A DNA stretch of 64,000 nucleotides from Anaerobaca lacustris (lineage in GTDB: Bacteria > Planctomycetota > Phycisphaerae > Sedimentisphaerales > Anaerobacaceae), in assembly GCF_030012215.1 (NCBI RefSeq), contig NZ_JASCXX010000023.1:41180-105179 (forward strand). The letters run 5' to 3'. A model generated the notes under the pieces. It was not told the origin of the DNA, made no database searches, and saw only the letters and a program-made list of their open reading frames with translations. Below, one piece after another: positions 2,250 to 8,753 of the stretch (position 1 is the first letter of the stretch; each line of letters starts with the position of its first letter). The translations under genes and the position numbers were made by a program.

Positions 2250-3020
2250 TCAATCCGGTACGAGCGGACCGCACGCCGGGCAGTGGGGGTTGCGGGGGAC
2301 GGGGACTTTGCGGAAGTGCATCGTCAGGGCGTCGTAGGTCAGCAGGCAATCGGTCAGCAGATCGCCGAGGCCGAGGAGGGTCTTGATGGCTTCGGTAGCC
2401 TGGAGCGTTCCAATGACGCCGGGAACGACGCCGAGGACACCCGCCCGGCTTGGCGAGGGCGACGCATGCGTTGCCCCTACGGAAGGTGGTCCGCCGAAGA
2501 CGCAGCGACAGCAGGCGGTCTTGCCCGGCAGGACTGTCATCAGTTGCCCTTCGAATTCCAGGATGCCCGCGTGGCAGAAGGGCACCCGCCGGGCGCAACA
2601 GGCGTCGTTGATCAGGAATTTGGTCGCGGGATCGTCCACCGCGTCGATGGCGAAATCGTAACCCTCGATAATCTCGGCGAGGCTCTCGGCGGTCGCCCAT
2701 CGGTCGTAGGTCCGCACGGTCACGTCCGGATTGATCGCCGCAATCGCCTCGCGGGCCGAGACGACCTTTCTGGTGCCCACGTCGGCGGTGCCGTGAGCGA
2801 TCTGCCTCTGGAGGTTGCTCAGATCCACCGCGTCGCCGTCGAGCAGGCCGATCGTTCCGACGCCGGCGGCCGCCAGGTACAGGGCCGCCGGCGAGCCAAG
2901 CCCGCCGACCCCGACGATCAGCACGCGGCAAGCGAGCAATTTCTCTTGGCCGGCCCGCCCGATCGGCTCGAGCCGGATGTTGCGAGCGTAGCGTTCGAGT
3001 TGCGATTCGGTCAGTGACAC
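2250..3020 (-). CDS. thiF: ThiF/MoeB/HesA-family ThiS adenylyltransferase
   Basis: This E1-like enzyme would adenylate the C-terminal Gly-Gly of ThiS in thiazole synthesis. Visible features are the nucleotide-binding GVGGLGS (37-43), the LDGDAVDLSNLQRQ segment, a zinc-ligand CxxC at 171-174 and a second CPAC near the C-terminus. The start is GTG with GGGGGA five bases upstream. Residues 182-190 read VGATHASPS and are encoded by a palindromic repeat (2453-2480). In relatives this stretch normally reads like PSCAEAGVLG, so the insertion seems to have replaced the conserved Cys that in E. coli ThiF forms the sulfur-transfer linkage with ThiS. The gene follows thiH at a 56-nt gap that holds another repeat copy. 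MoeB-like activity is an alternative, but the neighbours favour ThiF. Confidence 0.9.
   Translation of the reverse strand: MSLTESQLERYARNIRLEPIGRAGQEKLLACRVLIVGVGGLGSPAALYLAAAGVGTIGLLDGDAVDLSNLQRQIAHGTADVGTRKVVSAREAIAAINPDVTVRTYDRWATAESLAEIIEGYDFAIDAVDDPATKFLINDACCARRVPFCHAGILEFEGQLMTVLPGKTACCRCVFGGPPSVGATHASPSPSRAGVLGVVPGVIGTLQATEAIKTLLGLGDLLTDCLLTYDALTMHFRKVPVPRNPHCPACGPLVPD
2453..2480. repeat. Palindromic repeat, family A, inside thiF
   Basis: A 28-nt imperfect copy of the family A palindrome (half-site GTAGGGGCGAGGCA and its complement), centred on GCATGC. It lies in-frame within thiF, where the minus strand reads GTA GGG GCA ACG CAT GCG TCG CCC, giving VGATHASP. It has more mismatches than the copies at 3032, 4266 and 5061, so it may be older. 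Confidence 0.75.
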
Positions 3021-3031
3021 AGCAATCCCCC

Positions 3032-3059
3032 GTGAGGGCGAGGCATGCCTCGCCCCTAC
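3032..3059. repeat. Palindromic repeat, family A, thiH-thiF gap
   Basis: A 28-nt near-perfect palindrome with half-site GTGAGGGCGAGGCA and TGCCTCGCCCCTAC. It sits just upstream of the thiF GTG start and fills about half of the gap after thiH. It could form a hairpin in the operon mRNA between the two genes. Confidence 0.75.
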
Positions 3060-3076
3060 AGCCTCCAGCCTGCAGC

Positions 3077-4246
3077 CTACGGCCTATTCGTATCGAGAAA
3101 GGCGCGGTCCCAGTCCTTCCAGACGGGTTCGAGTCCATGCCGGGCGAGCATGTCGGCGACCTCGCGCGGGCTGCGGCGGTCGCTGACCTCGAACTGGCCC
3201 TCGCCGCGATCGGCTTGCGAATAGCCTCCGGGATTGGTCCGGCTGCCGGCGCTGATCCGCGTCGGGCCCAGCGCGACCACGTGATCGCGGAACGGCGCCG
3301 CTTCGCGCGTCGAGAGAACCAGCCCTGCATCGGCAAAGCACAGCCGAAGCGCCAGCATCATCTGGACGAGGTTCCGATCCGTCAGCAAATGCGGGAACTC
3401 GTCGCGCGGCACGCCGCAGGCCGGCCGCAGCCGGGGAAACGAAAACGACACGTGCGAGCGCCAGTACCGCCGGATCAGATACGATGCGTGCTCGCCCAGC
3501 GCCAGCGTCTCGATCCGCCAGTCGGCCAGTCCCAGCAGCACGCCGAGCCCGATCTCGCGCATGCCCGCCTGCGCCATGTCGTCGGGCCCTCGCAGCCGGA
3601 GATCGTAGTCCGCCTTCGGGCCGCCCGGATGCTGGCGAGCGTACTCCTGGCGGTCGTAGGTCTCCTGATACAGCGTCACGCCTTCGATGCCCGCCTCGAA
3701 GAGCCGACGGTACTCGCCGGCCGACATCTGATAGATCTCGATTCCGATGAAGCTGAACCGCTCGCGCAACCGCGCCGCCAACTCGGCGAGGTAATCGCTT
3801 GTGATGAACGTCCGGTCCTCGCTGCTGACCAGCAGAATGTCACGGAACCCTTCGCGGGCGATCCGCTCGGCATCGGCCAGCGCCTCGTCGATGGTCAGGC
3901 GGGTGCGTTCGAAGCGGTTCTCGACGTTGAAGCCGCAGTAGCGGCAGCGGTTCACACAGAAGCTCGACAGATAGAGCGGCGCGTAGAGCTTGATCGTCCG
4001 CCCGAAGCGCTGCCGCGTCAGCGTCTGGGACTGCCGTGCCATTTCTTCGAGGCAGGCCTCGGCCGCGGGCGAGACCAGTGCGAGCAGTTTGTCGAGCCGA
4101 TAGGAGCCGGGCCGGGTCGCCAGGACCGCCTCCACATCGCGCGTGGTGACGTCGCGCAGGCGCTGCCGCCAGCGATCGCGGTCCGCATCGAGATGCCGCT
4201 TGGCGAGTATGTCGCCGATCGAATTGTCGGTGTGCGTCTGGACCAT
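3077..4246 (-). CDS. thiH: 2-iminoacetate synthase ThiH
   Basis: This radical-SAM tyrosine lyase makes dehydroglycine for the thiazole ring of thiamine. The diagnostic cluster motif CVNRCRYC (C-x3-C-x2-C, residues 97-104) is intact, and the length (389 residues) fits ThiH. The ATG at 4246 gives MVQTHTDNS, which looks like a genuine N-terminus. An upstream ATG at 4279 lies in the palindromic repeat and would add MPRPTAHAVRS, partly repeat-encoded; that repeat places GGGGCGAGG just before the ATG, so use of this start cannot be excluded. Using ThiH rather than glycine oxidase ThiO suggests anaerobic or microaerobic thiamine synthesis. Confidence 0.95.
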   Translation of the reverse strand: MVQTHTDNSIGDILAKRHLDADRDRWRQRLRDVTTRDVEAVLATRPGSYRLDKLLALVSPAAEACLEEMARQSQTLTRQRFGRTIKLYAPLYLSSFCVNRCRYCGFNVENRFERTRLTIDEALADAERIAREGFRDILLVSSEDRTFITSDYLAELAARLRERFSFIGIEIYQMSAGEYRRLFEAGIEGVTLYQETYDRQEYARQHPGGPKADYDLRLRGPDDMAQAGMREIGLGVLLGLADWRIETLALGEHASYLIRRYWRSHVSFSFPRLRPACGVPRDEFPHLLTDRNLVQMMLALRLCFADAGLVLSTREAAPFRDHVVALGPTRISAGSRTNPGGYSQADRGEGQFEVSDRRSPREVADMLARHGLEPVWKDWDRAFLDTNRP

Positions 4247-4265
4247 TGATCTAACCGCATGGGCC

Positions 4266-4292
4266 GTAGGGCGAGGCATGCCTCGCCCCTAC
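4266..4292. repeat. Palindromic repeat, family A, thiG-thiH gap
   Basis: A 27-nt copy, one G shorter in the left arm, lying between thiG and thiH. On the minus strand it supplies a GGGGCGAGG purine run followed at once by an ATG (4277-4279) in frame with thiH. Confidence 0.75.
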
Positions 4293-4302
4293 GAATCGCA
4301 AG

Positions 4303-5118
4303 CTAATCGCGCAGGAATCCGGTCAGGGGGCTCGATGCCTGGGCGAGCCGGACGGCGGTGCGCGGTCCGGCGAGGTAGGCCGTGCGTCCGGCCTCGACCG
4401 CCAGCTTGAACGCCGTCGCCATCGCGAGCGGGTCCTCGGCAGTGGCGATAGCGGTGTTGACCAGGACCGCATCGGCGCCCATCTCCATCGCCTCGGCGGC
4501 GTGCGAAGGCAGCCCCAGTCCGGCGTCCACCACCACCGGCACGTTGCTCTGCTCGATGATGATCTCCAGCGCCGCCCGCGTCTGAATGCCCTGGTTCGAT
4601 CCGATCGGGCTGCCCAGCGGCATGACCGTCGCTGTGCCGCAGTCCTCCAGTCGTTTGGCGAGGACGGGGTCGGCGTTGATATACGGAAGCACCACGAAAC
4701 CCTCGGCCACCAGCGTCTCGGCGGCCTTGAGCGTCTCGATGGGGTCGGGCAGCAGATAGTACGGATCGGGCGTCACTTCCAGCTTGACCCACTCGATGCC
4801 CGTGGCCGCCCGCGCCAGGCGCGCCAGGCGGACCGCCTCGTCGCCCGTGCGGGCCCCCGACGTATTGGGCAGAAGCTGATACCGATCGCGGTCGATCGCG
4901 GCCAGCGTATCGTCATTCGGATTGTCGATGTCCACCCGCCGCAACGCCACCGTCACGATCTCGGCGCCCGAGGCGGCCAGCGCCCGCGCCATCACCTGCG
5001 GCGAGGCGAATTTGCCCGTCCCGACCAGCAGACGCGAAGCGAACGACCGCCCGCCAATCCGTAGGGGCGAGGCATGCCTCGCCCCTACATGCGTCGCCTG
5101 TTTCCCGTCCGAGGCCAT
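4303..5118 (-). CDS. thiG: Thiazole synthase ThiG
   Basis: ThiG condenses deoxyxylulose phosphate, dehydroglycine and ThiS-thiocarboxylate into the thiamine thiazole. The TIM-barrel signature is clear: [26 protein letters not shown] with the Schiff-base lysine at about 112, [32 protein letters not shown] and [11 protein letters not shown]. The protein has 271 residues. Homologues begin close to [12 protein letters not shown]; the extra N-terminal residues [11 protein letters not shown] are encoded by a perfect family A palindrome at 5061-5088, inserted in-frame. The ATG overlaps the thiS stop as ATGA, so translation is probably coupled. Confidence 0.97.
5061..5088. repeat. Palindromic repeat, family A, inside thiG
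   Basis: A perfect 28-nt palindrome (half-site GTAGGGGCGAGGCA) within codons 11-20 of thiG. The minus strand reads GTA GGG GCG AGG CAT GCC TCG CCC CTA, encoding VGARHASPL, in the same frame as the copy in thiF. It is the reference copy for the family in this window. Confidence 0.8.
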
Positions 5119-5330
5119 CAGCCGCCTCCCATGAATTTGATCAGCTCGATGCTCTGTCCATCCCGCAGTTCCGTCGTGCCGAACCGCTCGGGCCCGACGA
5201 TCGCGCCGTCCACCTCGGCCACGACCGTGGCGGGCGCCACGCCCAGCACGTCAAGCAGCTTGGCCAGCGTCCCGGGCATGGCCTCGGCCGCGAACGGCCG
5301 GCGGACCCCGTTGACTGTCAGTGATTTCAT
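5118..5330 (-). CDS. thiS: Sulfur carrier protein ThiS
   Basis: A 70-residue ubiquitin-fold protein ending in GGG, the C-terminal Gly-Gly that is adenylated and thiocarboxylated as sulfur donor for the thiazole. The body VTVNG-like start, [10 protein letters not shown] and [16 protein letters not shown] match ThiS. The ATG at 5330 gives [11 protein letters not shown] and lies about 16 nt after the riboswitch terminator. Upstream in-frame ATGs lie within the riboswitch and are not real starts. First gene of the thiSGHF operon; the stop overlaps thiG. Confidence 0.95.
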
Positions 5331-5345
5331 CGGCCTTACGTCCCA

Positions 5346-5376
5346 ACAAAAAAAGCACCCCACGAGAGGGGTGCTT
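5346..5376 (-). terminator. Intrinsic terminator of the thi riboswitch
   Basis: On the minus strand a 9-bp stem (AAGCACCCC with GGGGTGCTT, loop CTCG-like) is followed directly by seven Us. It sits between the TPP aptamer and the thiS start, as expected for an expression platform that ends transcription when TPP is bound. Confidence 0.9.
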
Positions 5377-5392
5377 GGGCACGGCAACAAGC

Positions 5393-5498
5393 CTCCCTTC
5401 GCAGGTGTTACCCTGATCAGGTTCCAAGGGTCATCGCCGCGAAGCGATTTCTCAGCCTGCCCATCCCGACGTTCATCGGGATGCATCGGCTCCCCTGA
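5393..5498 (-). promoter_or_regulatory. TPP riboswitch (THI element)
   Basis: Read on the minus strand, the segment contains the conserved THI-box strings in order: GGGGAGCC, then an extended hairpin (CATCCCGA with TCGGGATG), GGCTGAGA, GACCCTTGGAACCTGATC and GGGTAACACCTGCGAAGGGA. These are the pyrimidine- and pyrophosphate-sensor helices of the thiamine pyrophosphate aptamer. The intrinsic terminator follows within 20 nt and then thiS, so high TPP should switch the whole thiSGHF operon off at the transcriptional level. Confidence 0.95.
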
Positions 5499-5536
5499 CT
5501 TTGTTCGAAAACGATGGTATGGTACCATGGCTCGCC

Positions 5537-5938
5537 ATGAAAGACAAGCGATTCGTCATCCAAGAACACCAGACGCCCGAAGGCGTGCACTGGGACCTCA
5601 TGCTGGAGCAGGACGATGTCCTGATAACGTTCCGCCTGCCCGCAGGGCGAGCGTCCCCGCTCGCCTTGTCGTGCGAGGACGCACGACCTACCCGCGCTGA
5701 GAAGATCTTCGACCACCCGCTGCGATTCCTCTGGTACGAAGGTCCCGTGCAGAACGGGACGGGCCGGGTCCGCATCGTCGACCGGGGCGCCTGGCGGCTG
5801 GACGACCGCCGGGACGAGTGCCTGACCTTCCACCTGCACGGCCAGGTCCTCCACGGCGCCTTTGCCCTGGTCCGAACCGGCCCGGGCGAATGGCGCTTCG
5901 AGTGCTGCGGCCGCAATGGCCGTAGGGGCGAATCATGA
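5537..5938 (+). CDS. LigD-type 3'-phosphoesterase domain protein
   Basis: This 133-residue protein matches the N-terminal phosphoesterase domain of bacterial LigD: RFVIQEHQTPEGVHWDLMLE near the start carries the conserved H-x-D pair, and LRFLWYEGPV and TFHLHGQVLHGAFALV match later strands. The domain removes 3'-phosphates or ribonucleotides at DNA ends. No ligase or polymerase domain is attached. ATG 5537 gives MKDKRFVIQEH; ATG 5519 or TTG 5501 are possible earlier starts. Residues of about 37-51 (GRASPLALSCEDARP) derive from two adjacent hairpins at 5646-5687 inserted in a surface loop, and the TGA stop lies in a family A palindrome. It diverges from the thi operon. Confidence 0.8.
   Translation: MKDKRFVIQEHQTPEGVHWDLMLEQDDVLITFRLPAGRASPLALSCEDARPTRAEKIFDHPLRFLWYEGPVQNGTGRVRIVDRGAWRLDDRRDECLTFHLHGQVLHGAFALVRTGPGEWRFECCGRNGRRGES
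5646..5687. repeat. Double hairpin (family C) inside the LigD-like gene
   Basis: There are two perfect 8-bp inverted repeats side by side: GGCGAGCG-TCCC-CGCTCGCC (5646-5665) and GTCGTGCG-AGGA-CGCACGAC (5668-5687). They are translated in-frame as GRASPLALSCEDARP between two conserved blocks of the protein, where relatives have a short loop. Confidence 0.6.
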
Positions 5939-5949
5939 TTCGCCCCCAG
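5922..5949. repeat. Palindromic repeat, family A variant
   Basis: A palindrome with the family A ends GTAGGGGCGA but AATCATGATT in place of AGGCATGCCT in the centre. The TGA in the centre (5936-5938) is the stop codon of the LigD-like gene. It lies at the convergent junction with gspD. Confidence 0.65.
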
Positions 5950-5990: not shown

Positions 5991-6012
5991 TGGTGGGCAT
6001 GGCCCACCCTAC
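5991..6012. repeat. Palindromic repeat, family B (copy 2)
   Basis: Arms TGGTGGGC and GCCCACCC surround a 3-nt loop. In reverse complement it matches 659-680 at 20 of 22 bases. Its GTAGGG end supplies the TAG stop of gspD on the minus strand, exactly as the first copy does for the gene ending at 662. A weaker GTAGGGGGTGCCCC element lies at 5955-5968. Together these may act as a bidirectional terminator at this convergent junction. Confidence 0.65.
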
Positions 6013-8753
6013 GGCTCGTTTCGCCTGGCAGGGTCTTCTTCCATGGCCTCGATGTGTTCGCGGAACAGGTCGGCCGATCTGCGGTCGCTCTGGAAATTCG
6101 TGCGGGCCCGCACGGCATCGGAGATCGGCGACAACGCCAGGGCGTCCGGCGCGACGTGCGGGGTCAGGAAGATCAGCAGCTCGGTCTTGGCCTTGGTCTT
6201 CTCGGTCCGCTTGAACAGGTGTCCGGCGATCGGGATGTCGCCCAGCAGCGGGACCTTCTTGATCGTGTCACGGATCTCGTCCTGGATGAGCCCGCCGATG
6301 ACGATGGTCTGGCCGTCGCGCACGGCGACCTTGGTCTCGCTCGACCGCGTCGCGAAGACCGGGAGATTCAGCTTTTCGGAGATCTGGATCGTCTCACCCG
6401 TGGTGGACGAAATCTCCGGACGCACCGTCATGTTGACGAGCCCTTCGGGGTTGATCGAGGGCGTCACCACCAGGATGATGCCGATGTCCCGGTACTCGGT
6501 GGTCGTCTGCGTTCCCACGTTGCTGGTGGTCTCGCCCGTGGCGAACGGGACCTGGGAGCCGACCGTGATCGTGGCGGCCTGGTTGTTGCTGGTCAGGATG
6601 TACGGTCGCGACAGGATGTTCAGCTTGCCGGCCTCCTGCAGGGCATGGAGCGTGATGTCCAGATCGCCGGTGATGCTGTTGACGAACAAGCCCTGACTGG
6701 GCTCGCCGAAGAGCGTGCTGGTCCGGGTGCTGTCCCCGTTGCTGCGCAGGTTCAGCATGGAGAACTCCGTACCGATGTCCAGCTTGTCGCTGTAGGTGAT
6801 CTCGGCGAACAGGACCTTGATCAGCACCTGTCCGACGGGCTTGTCGAGTTCCTCGATGATCGGGCGGACTCTCTCGTAGTTCTTCGTCGAGGTCAGAATG
6901 AGCAGCGAATTGGTCTCCGTCTCGGCCTCGAAGTAGGTCTCTTCGGACAGATCGTTGGTGCTACTGCTGTTGGTGCTCGTTGTTGTGCCGGTGGCCTGGG
7001 GCGCCGCCTGCTGCCGCCCGGCACCCTGGAACTGCTGACCGGTCCCTGTGGTGGCCTGGTTCAAGGCCTGGATCTCGGCGAAGAGGCTGTTCAGAACGTC
7101 TTTCAGGTTCGTGGCGTTGGCGTTCTTGAGCGCGTAGACGAAGATCCGTCGTTCCTGCTTGGGGTCCTGGTCCAACTCTTTGATGATCTGGCTGACGATC
7201 TCCAGTGTCGTCGGCGGCCCGCTGACGACTACGGCGTTGGTGCGCGAGTCGGCGGCCGCGACCACGGATACATCGGAAGGGCTGCCGCCTTGGGTGGTCT
7301 GCTGCTGGGCGCCGGGGAATCCGCCCCTCTGGAACTGGACCTGCTGGGCCTGTTGGGTGCGGGTTGTCGTCCTTCGTGCCGCCGTGCCGGTGTCGCCGAA
7401 CACGTCGTTGATCAGGTCGGCCGTATCGCGCGCGTCGGCATATTCCAGGTGGAACACCTTCACATCCGCGACGTTGGGCACCTGGGCGTCGAGACTCTTG
7501 ACCACCTCGGCCACCACTTCAAGGATGGCGTCCGGACCGGTCACCACGACGGTGTTGGTCTGGCTGTCGGCGGCGGCGACGACCTGCGAGGTGCCGCTTC
7601 CGCTGTCCTGCTGCGTCTCCGGCATGCCGCCGCGACCCCCCGGGCCCCGGAACATCATGGGGCCACCTTGTCCGGTCTGCGTCGTACTCTGACCGTCTCC
7701 GAACAGTTTGTTGATGACGTCGGCGGTGTTCATGGCATCGGCGTAGCGAAGCTGAAAGACCTTGATGCCGGCGACCTTGGCCGTCCGATCGTCCAGGGCC
7801 GCGATCATGCCGCTGACGATCTCCAGGGCGTCGGCGGGCCCGCGCACCACTACGGCGTTGGTCCGATCGTCGGCGGCGGCGACGACCTGCACGTTCACCG
7901 TCGCGCCGGCGGTCTGTCCGTCGCCGTCCCGCTCTCCCCCTCGTCCGCCGAACCCGCCTCGACCGCCCGGACCGCCTCGCATCTGCATCATCATCTCGAT
8001 GGGGTTGCGGGCGCCCGTCCGGGTGCCGGTGGTGGCGTTCTGCTGCTGAAAGATCGTGTTGATCAGGGTCGCCGTGCTGGTCGCATCGGCATTGACCAGA
8101 CGGAAGACCCGGATCTCCGCGACGTTCGACATGTGGGTGTCCAGCGCCTGGATGATCTCCATCAGACGTCGGATGTTGGCGGCGGTGTCGGTGATGATCA
8201 GCGCGTTGCCGTCCTCGTTGGCCTCAATGCTGGCGTAGGCAGGGACGAGGACCGAGAGGTTTTGTCTCAGCGCCGCCGCGGTGACGTGACTGACGGGCAC
8301 AACGTACGTGATGATGTCGTCGCTGGGTACCACAGCCTTCGGGTCGCGTCCGGTCCGCACCGGAATGGTCTCCTGCTTGGCATTGGCGAGCGTGACCACC
8401 TTGAGGGTCCTGCCGACCAGCACCGTGGTCAGACCTCGCTCTTTCAGGATCGAGTTGATCAAGGACACGGCGTGGTCCAGCGAGATCGGCTGGCGGCTGA
8501 TCACCGTCATGCGACCGTCGGAAATCGGTGCATCCGAAATCACCGTCAGCCCGGCCTTCTCCGACAGGTATTCCAGGACGGCCTGGAGAGGCGTGTCCTG
8601 GAAGTTGAGCTTGAGCTTCACGTCGCCGTTGCCTTCGACGACTTCGACCGGTTCGGTCGCACCGGATGCCGGCTGCGCCCCACTATGACTGGGAGTCAAA
8701 AGGACAGCGCCGGCCAGCATCGCGCCAACGAGAATTGTCTTTAGAATCTGCAT
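6009..8753 (-). CDS. gspD: Type II secretion outer-membrane secretin GspD
   Basis: GspD forms the outer-membrane channel of the type II secretion system. A signal peptide (first 26 residues) precedes the N0-type domain (LNFQDTPLQAVLEYLSEKAGL) and then five secretin_N-type repeats. These repeats carry units such as VKVFHLEYADARDTADLIN and VVAAADSRTNAVVVSGP. The C-terminal third is the secretin pore with VLIKVLFAEITYSD, VGSQVPF and the end block ELLIFLTPHV. At 914 residues it is longer than the usual 650-750, because of the extra N-repeats and Gly/Arg-rich inserts such as GGPGGRGGFGGRGG. It is the last gene of the operon, and its TAG stop comes from a family B repeat. Confidence 0.95.
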   Translation of the reverse strand: MQILKTILVGAMLAGAVLLTPSHSGAQPASGATEPVEVVEGNGDVKLKLNFQDTPLQAVLEYLSEKAGLTVISDAPISDGRMTVISRQPISLDHAVSLINSILKERGLTTVLVGRTLKVVTLANAKQETIPVRTGRDPKAVVPSDDIITYVVPVSHVTAAALRQNLSVLVPAYASIEANEDGNALIITDTAANIRRLMEIIQALDTHMSNVAEIRVFRLVNADATSTATLINTIFQQQNATTGTRTGARNPIEMMMQMRGGPGGRGGFGGRGGERDGDGQTAGATVNVQVVAAADDRTNAVVVRGPADALEIVSGMIAALDDRTAKVAGIKVFQLRYADAMNTADVINKLFGDGQSTTQTGQGGPMMFRGPGGRGGMPETQQDSGSGTSQVVAAADSQTNTVVVTGPDAILEVVAEVVKSLDAQVPNVADVKVFHLEYADARDTADLINDVFGDTGTAARRTTTRTQQAQQVQFQRGGFPGAQQQTTQGGSPSDVSVVAAADSRTNAVVVSGPPTTLEIVSQIIKELDQDPKQERRIFVYALKNANATNLKDVLNSLFAEIQALNQATTGTGQQFQGAGRQQAAPQATGTTTSTNSSSTNDLSEETYFEAETETNSLLILTSTKNYERVRPIIEELDKPVGQVLIKVLFAEITYSDKLDIGTEFSMLNLRSNGDSTRTSTLFGEPSQGLFVNSITGDLDITLHALQEAGKLNILSRPYILTSNNQAATITVGSQVPFATGETTSNVGTQTTTEYRDIGIILVVTPSINPEGLVNMTVRPEISSTTGETIQISEKLNLPVFATRSSETKVAVRDGQTIVIGGLIQDEIRDTIKKVPLLGDIPIAGHLFKRTEKTKAKTELLIFLTPHVAPDALALSPISDAVRARTNFQSDRRSADLFREHIEAMEEDPARRNEP

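Follow-up and report, generated by a model that had tools for sequence, protein, structure and literature searches.

Palindromic repeats with a GTAG foot lie in frame within thiF and thiG of Anaerobaca lacustris and are likely spread by a resident tyrosine transposase

Introduction

Repetitive extragenic palindromes (REPs) tagged with GTAG form a super-family of 20-40 bp palindromes that carry this tetranucleotide at one end, occur in many copies and in some cases lie in frame (Di Nocera et al. 2013, PMC3733652). According to the accessible part of that paper, GTAG is found at one end in >90% of the members of most families, REPs ending in CGTC are reported without a dedicated transposase, and the Rickettsia palindromic elements (RPE) also end in CGTC. 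For TnpA_REP subclass 2.4 of the REP-associated tyrosine transposases (RAYTs), the accessible text describes REPs whose foot reads GT[AG]G and is in some cases doubled, and also in-frame REPs within the RAYT gene itself, generally between the HuH and Y motifs (Quentin et al. 2018, PMC6006769). Here we analyse a 64-kb stretch (the window) of the 5.73-Mb genome of Anaerobaca lacustris (G000), together with the other genomes of the genus (G001 to G005). Five copies of one palindromic repeat lie in the window between positions 2457 and 5945: one each within thiF and thiG, two between successive thi genes and one where a LigD-type open reading frame (ORF) ends. All five are present where an earlier note, made from the letters alone, had placed them. 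That note had also called the genome planctomycete-like, as is suggested by the closeness of a Phycisphaerae ThiG homologue (P0125, 88% identical) and by a Phycisphaerae metagenome-assembled genome (L035) whose Y1 match agrees in place and score with that of the genus member G002.

The system resembles subclass 2.4 in its GTAG foot and GGG/CCC stem base, in having REPs on both sides of a RAYT gene as well as an in-frame one that separates its HUH and Tyr motifs, in the location of this internal REP in a predicted loop of low confidence, and in a perfect double-foot copy in thiG. It differs in its host, a planctomycete of Phycisphaerae type, in that 5 of 73 copies are double-footed, in the copies within the core enzymes ThiF and ThiG, and in the switching of variants at fixed coding sites. 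We assign it to subclass 2.4 by anatomy, not by tree; since this layout has been published (PMC6006769), the kind of system is already known. With the GTAG-tagged super-family the repeat shares size, copy number and GTAG end, and no family of this sequence is named in the accessible part of PMC3733652. Our literature search found no paper holding the letters or the peptides of the repeat. By prediction, the HUH/Tyr fold is shared with the IS200/IS605 insertion sequences (IS608, ISDra2), and so is a hairpin with a guide tetranucleotide, as described in the accessible part of PMC6006769, whereas the present repeat has no transposase gene of its own and is not a complete insertion sequence.

Results

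The repeat unit consists of a GTAG foot and a 20-bp hairpin, GGGCGA-N8-TCGCCC, i.e. it is a GTAG-type REP. At ≤3 mismatches, 83 copies of the core were found in the genome versus 1 for the reversed control, so that random occurrence in GC-rich DNA does not apply. The earlier description as a 28-nt palindrome built from a half-site holds in that the whole palindrome is repeated, but the unit is better described as GTAG plus a 20-bp palindrome. Taken alone, the half-site at ≤3 mismatches occurs in the window about as often as chance predicts (10 found versus 7.93 expected). The forms of the repeat were counted in 715 kb of the same genome, comprising stretches picked mostly for their copies as well as the window and its neighbours. 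With the inner bases left free, 101 matches to 11-12 of the 12 outer bases were obtained (4 for the reversed sequence), and the inner bases pair at all four positions in 52 of them and at three positions in 21. An exact GTAG is present at one or both ends in 63 of the 73 palindromic copies and at both ends in 5, while a foot retaining at least three of its four bases is found in 70. The stem begins after the foot with three consecutive G-C pairs (GTAG-GGG...CCC), and TTGC is the most frequent tetranucleotide at the untagged end (10 of 60 single-foot cases). Among inner sequences, GGCATGCC leads with 35 copies, followed by CGCATGCG (11) and ATCATCAT (7). Copies are also locally clustered: four of the 83 lie within 2.65 kb of the window, and such a cluster arose anywhere in the genome in 2 of 5000 uniform draws, the test being post hoc. 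The repeat is a real, non-random repeat of mobile type.

A RAYT gene associated with this REP was found in the same genome (G000:C7:13111-13680, corresponding to L205:8112-8681; 190 residues) when 392 genomes of the phylum, 56 of which matched, were searched with a RAYT that does not contain the repeat. The gene is flanked on both sides by cores of the repeat (L205:8081 and 8701) with GTAG facing outward. A third core (L205:8388) lies in frame within the gene and is read as RARHASPL (residues ~92-99), between the motifs MPNHVH (HUH) and YYEH (Tyr). The ortholog of G002 (84% identity) carries the same internal copy, and a second RAYT of the same type in G000 (contig C48) has, as judged by eye, a different hairpin, GTAGGGGC, in the same loop. 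The predicted fold of the RAYT (mean predicted local distance difference test score, pLDDT, 84.7) matched 30 PDB chains at E ≤0.001, all of them of IS200/IS605 type or RAYTs, and the highest TMq for this predicted fold (0.54) was obtained with 4er8, a RAYT with REP hairpin. The residues 95-98 encoded by the repeat have pLDDT values <50; ahead of the C-terminus, no block is predicted with less certainty than residues 91-100. What moves the repeat had been left as unknown by the earlier note; this RAYT, with its flanking and internal copies, is the likely mover. An orphan family without RAYT was considered as well and was rejected once a RAYT with this REP had been found in the genome itself.

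The profile PF01797 detected three Y1 genes in G000, but neither these nor any others that it detected in the genus are associated with this REP, and the RAYT was missed in both searches with it that took in G000. It also gave no match in 17 of the 49 genomes reached through exact 28-mer loci, a count that says little since the RAYT with the internal REP itself falls below the cut-off of this profile, probably because the insert splits the profile. Absence counts from such generic Y1 profiles are for the same reason unsafe. In 25 of 106 Y1 loci the gene stands between matching hairpins, most of which belong to other families; three loci (L191, L359 and L360) are close to the present family. 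The RAYT of L359 (FCPU426 bacterium) contains the 28-mer in frame after the HUH motif and has related palindromes on both sides, and that of L191 (Marinimicrobia) contains an in-frame 28-mer closer to the Tyr motif. At L360:457-1224 (a Trichlorobacter metagenome-assembled genome), a C-terminal RAYT fragment between two 28-mers lies in frame inside another ORF, an arrangement suggestive of a composite unit that two REPs have moved. Full ORFs were available for 18 of 30 RAYT loci of the phylum: a palindrome (arm ≥8) lies between HUH and Tyr in 9 of the 18, the present one included, and elsewhere in the ORF in 4. The count of the peptide among RAYTs (17 of 120) is biased, the query having contained the repeat and 120 of 848 matches having been kept.

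Within thiF, the repeat occupies positions 2457-2480 (core 2457-2476, minus strand) and is read in frame as VGATHASP (residues ~181-188). Its foot lies at 2477-2480 of the minus strand, and its CG arms have one mismatch. The corresponding site is without repeat in G003 and G004, and holds other palindromes, in the same loop, in G005 and G002. The copy in the thiF-thiH gap (3036-3059, core 3036-3055, minus strand) has a decayed second foot (GTGA); half of it is deleted in G005, and G002 has a variant with AT arms. The copy in the thiH-thiG gap (4269-4292, core 4269-4288, minus strand) contains at its centre the ATG that opens the longest thiH ORF; at this site AT-arm variants were found in G005 and G002 and a decayed copy in G001. 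The double-foot copy within thiG (5061-5088, core 5065-5084) is an exact 28-bp palindrome, as had been claimed, and is read in frame as VGARHASPL (residues ~11-19). G002 has an AT-arm variant there, and the site is empty in G001 and G005. The thiG genes of G001, G003, G004 and G005 have no repeat, so that the segment is not a normal part of the enzyme. The last copy (5922-5945, core 5926-5945, plus strand) has AT arms (GAATCATGATTC) and supplies the stop codon (TGA, 5936-5938) of the LigD-type ORF; G001 has the same variant at the same site.

Comparison of the same sites among the genomes revealed different variants of the repeat. In the thi locus, GC arms in G000 correspond to AT arms in G002 at three sites (the two gaps and thiG). 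At L214:17827, within a ParB-like gene, G000 and G002 have GC arms; the arms are AT in G005, with left boundary and spacing unchanged, yet G005 is the nearer relative by flank identity. Of 65 comparisons of filled sites, 27 passed the filters; the inner bases differ at 48 of 216 positions and the outer ones at 8 of 324, the filter favouring outer identity by construction as it demands 11 of the 12 outer bases. Four switches between classes were seen at three sites. In 7 of the 27 kept comparisons the gap is well off 20, so some of these may pair neighbouring copies. A constant unit of 24 bp inserted behind a pre-existing GTAG was rejected, as it fits thiG of G002 only and neither L212 nor L213. 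This switching at fixed coding sites (ThiF loop, thiG and the ParB-like gene) is worth an experiment; like the single codon phase of the in-ORF copies and the RAYT within valS described below, it is among the less expected features.

Two other processes might have produced this pattern. If the RAYT prefers GTAG-like targets, arm variants could have landed separately on hot sites, with no replacement of one by another. We regard such independent hits as a realistic possibility, if on balance a rather doubtful one: the thiG site is empty in G001 and G005 and holds different variants in G000 and G002, and the loops of ThiF and ValS contain other palindromes in other species, all of which fits repeated landing; yet the hits would have to fall on the identical base pair of a coding gene, and at L214:17827 three species are nearly alike in the left flank and over the element's first ten bases, although one of them departs from the others at 6 of the 8 inner bases. 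The arms might instead drift in place, in genomes where no transposase is active now, and be kept palindromic by hairpin-templated mutation during replication, known as quasipalindrome correction. The arms do stay complementary, as the pairing of the inner bases among the 101 matches indicates, and genomes in which no DNA match to the RAYT was found still contain copies. Drift would nevertheless be expected to proceed stepwise, and the observed switches are wholesale, with 6 of 8 inner bases changing at once between the recurrent classes GGCATGCC and ATNATNAT, which makes this explanation improbable. Repeated hot-site hits or exchange by the RAYT could both yield the variant pattern; drift could not easily do so.

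At least eight copies lie within ORFs: in thiF, thiG, the RAYT gene, the gene of a beta-lactamase-fold protein, that of a large protein with a DUF4175 match below the cut-off, and three in L214, where two of the host ORFs have a ParB_N match and the third is a paralogue as judged by eye. The codon phase is identical in all eight, in agreement with the same frame noticed before for thiF and thiG. The ThiG peptide precedes the part of the protein that aligns to solved ThiG chains, the alignment starting at residue 20 with the best chain and at residues 10-20 over six ThiG-like chains. The ThiF peptide falls in the segment between CxxC and AGVLG, which is gapped when aligned to structures of MoeB and ThiF. 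Close ThiF homologues have GATHASP, RANDDSPL, GAMHASP or GANHHSP in the same loop; a strict regular expression flagged 4 of 119 parsed loops, and further variants were read by eye. An N-terminus of 10 residues that lacks the peptide is found in 106 of the 120 ThiG homologues kept, and ANHDSPL peptides stand there in 4. In one ThiG homologue (P0122), a second peptide resembling the repeat, VRATHASPL, takes the place of IDRDRYQ within the barrel.

The single codon phase, and the fact that many of the closest ThiF homologues keep repeat-like peptides in this loop, would be expected if the peptide were a selected protein feature and the palindrome were maintained for its coding. We reject peptide selection as the main cause and consider it very improbable, because the hosts are unrelated (ThiF, ThiG, RAYT, a beta-lactamase-fold protein and ParB-like proteins) and because most ThiG homologues lack the peptide. 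The RAYTs of other phyla (L359 and L191) moreover read the repeat in the other open phase, as RGEACLAP, and for 36 of 61 copies neither flank was scored as coding by a simple, home-made codon model. This model missed the RAYT and thiG; its five in-frame calls include L291:8546, a chance match with unpaired inner bases, and it placed the L214:17827 copy in a different frame although the ORF continues through the repeat without a stop. In ThiF the peptide falls in a variable loop and in ThiG in an N-terminal tail; both peptides are probably tolerated rather than selected or useful. The resemblance to the RPE proposed at first holds for the in-frame behaviour, both being repeated palindromes within unrelated proteins, but kinship is extremely improbable and was rejected, since RPE end in CGTC according to the accessible part of PMC3733652, and the present element shows GTAG in 63 of the 73 copies, together with a RAYT that both contains the repeat and is flanked by it.

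At ≤1 mismatch, the core occurs in 38, 13, 33, 1, 0 and 22 copies in G000 to G005, respectively, hence in five of the six genomes of the genus, and in none of 55 other relatives of the family or order. The exact 28-mer was found in at least 119 stretches from many phyla, with 124 copies in those stretches; among the matches listed, the phyla include Chloroflexi, Bacteroidales, Cyanobacteria, Tectomicrobia, Poribacteria, Gemmatimonadetes and Proteobacteria. The 28-mer is identical across many phyla (L023-L141), with several copies in single genomes. These stretches (813 kb) hold 69 further perfect palindromes (arm ≥11), of which 17 have GTAGGG or CCCTAC ends and other arms. Related palindromes with other arms, together with the many-phyla 28-mer, indicate that the sequence belongs to a wide class. 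Its identity across phyla may reflect horizontal spread or convergence within a constrained class.

Another RAYT, together with its own hairpins, lies in frame within valS (L017:1-2709, G000:C13, minus strand) and adds ~240 residues. It reaches 84.6 bits with NF047646 (cut-off 80) over profile positions 25-145 of 146. The insert is absent from G002 to G005, and G001 has a single similar in-frame hairpin there. In the accessible part of the literature, no report of a RAYT in valS turned up. Other repeat families occur as well. A hairpin pair of a different REP family lies in frame in the LigD-type ORF of the window (5641-5691); this ~50-nt repeat was found at many places in G000 to G005 among the matches listed, and the site is without the pair in G001, G002 and G005. 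The hairpin GTCGTGCG flanks the RAYT gene L163 of G004. Palindromes of a further GTAG family (GTAGGGTGGGC..GCCCACC) are present in the window at 659-680 and 5991-6014, and the Y1 genes L156 (G001) and L166 (G005) are each bracketed by hairpins GTAGGGTGTGC..GCACACC.

The thi genes of the window are read from the minus strand. The thiF/moeB-type adenylyltransferase gene (2250-3020) scores 256.8 bits with PF00899, its best solved chains being MoeB and ThiF. The longest ORF of thiH, encoding 2-iminoacetate synthase, extends over 3077-4279 (TIGR02351, 439.5 bits); its true start is probably the Met 11 codons downstream of the ATG of this ORF, outside the repeat. The thiazole synthase gene thiG (4303-5118; PF05690, 366.6 bits) overlaps with its ATG the stop codon of a thiS-like ORF. 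A thiamine pyrophosphate (TPP) riboswitch (5377-5506, minus strand; RF00059, 64.5 bits, gathering threshold 54.3) precedes the thiS-thiG-thiH-thiF run. On the plus strand, the LigD 3′-phosphoesterase-type ORF ended by the repeat (5501-5938) scores 55.7 bits with PF13298.

Discussion

It is highly probable that the palindrome, a GTAG-footed REP, has been spread by the RAYT at G000:C7:13111-13680. By analogy with related enzymes, this single-strand HUH/Tyr transposase (TnpA_REP) would bind the GTAG-GGGCGAGGCATGCCTCGCCC hairpin via its foot in single-stranded DNA, and would then cut the hairpin and join it at new places. Most copies appear extragenic; those in coding sequence would survive if the frame is kept and the segment is disordered or variable, as may be the case for the ThiF loop, the ThiG N-terminal tail and the RAYT's own loop. 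Other variants would furthermore take over the sites of resident copies, and this would account for the different arms at one coding site among species.

Several points weigh against mobilisation by this RAYT and against replacement. We observed neither movement nor cutting. The RAYT stays below the cut-offs of two profiles, at 53.8 bits for NF047646 (cut-off 80) and 17.5 bits for PF01797 (cut-off 23), and has no sequence match in the PDB. In G001 and G005, which have 13 and 22 copies, no DNA match to the RAYT was found (E 1e-25, 40 candidates per genome), with no search for a RAYT protein made there, and six genomes of the genus are too few for a correlation between RAYT and copies. Among the eight in-ORF copies, some are in related genes (the three in L214). 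In-place replacement rests on three DNA-level sites after filtering; the net length change varies (+24 in thiG of G002 versus G001 and G005, about +15 at L212 and about -3 at L213), and the empty sites are too diverged to give the exact target.

More tentatively, and with less likelihood than we would give to independent hits, REPs may be exchanged as cassettes: the RAYT would swap the resident hairpin at the same foot with the frame kept, so that enzyme loops such as that of ThiF would be repeatedly rewritten, and RAYT-REP cassettes could enter an essential gene (valS) in frame. No report of REP replacement turned up in the accessible part of the literature.

The association of an in-frame palindrome in metabolic enzymes with a RAYT that carries the same palindrome makes the mover testable with one protein and one oligonucleotide. 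Surveys relying on PF01797 may undercount RAYTs with an internal REP. The sites in thiF, thiG, valS and the ParB-like genes are natural experiments on the coding uptake of mobile hairpins and on their exchange in place. If cassette exchange is true, REPs would be a means of diversifying protein loops and not inert extragenic repeats.

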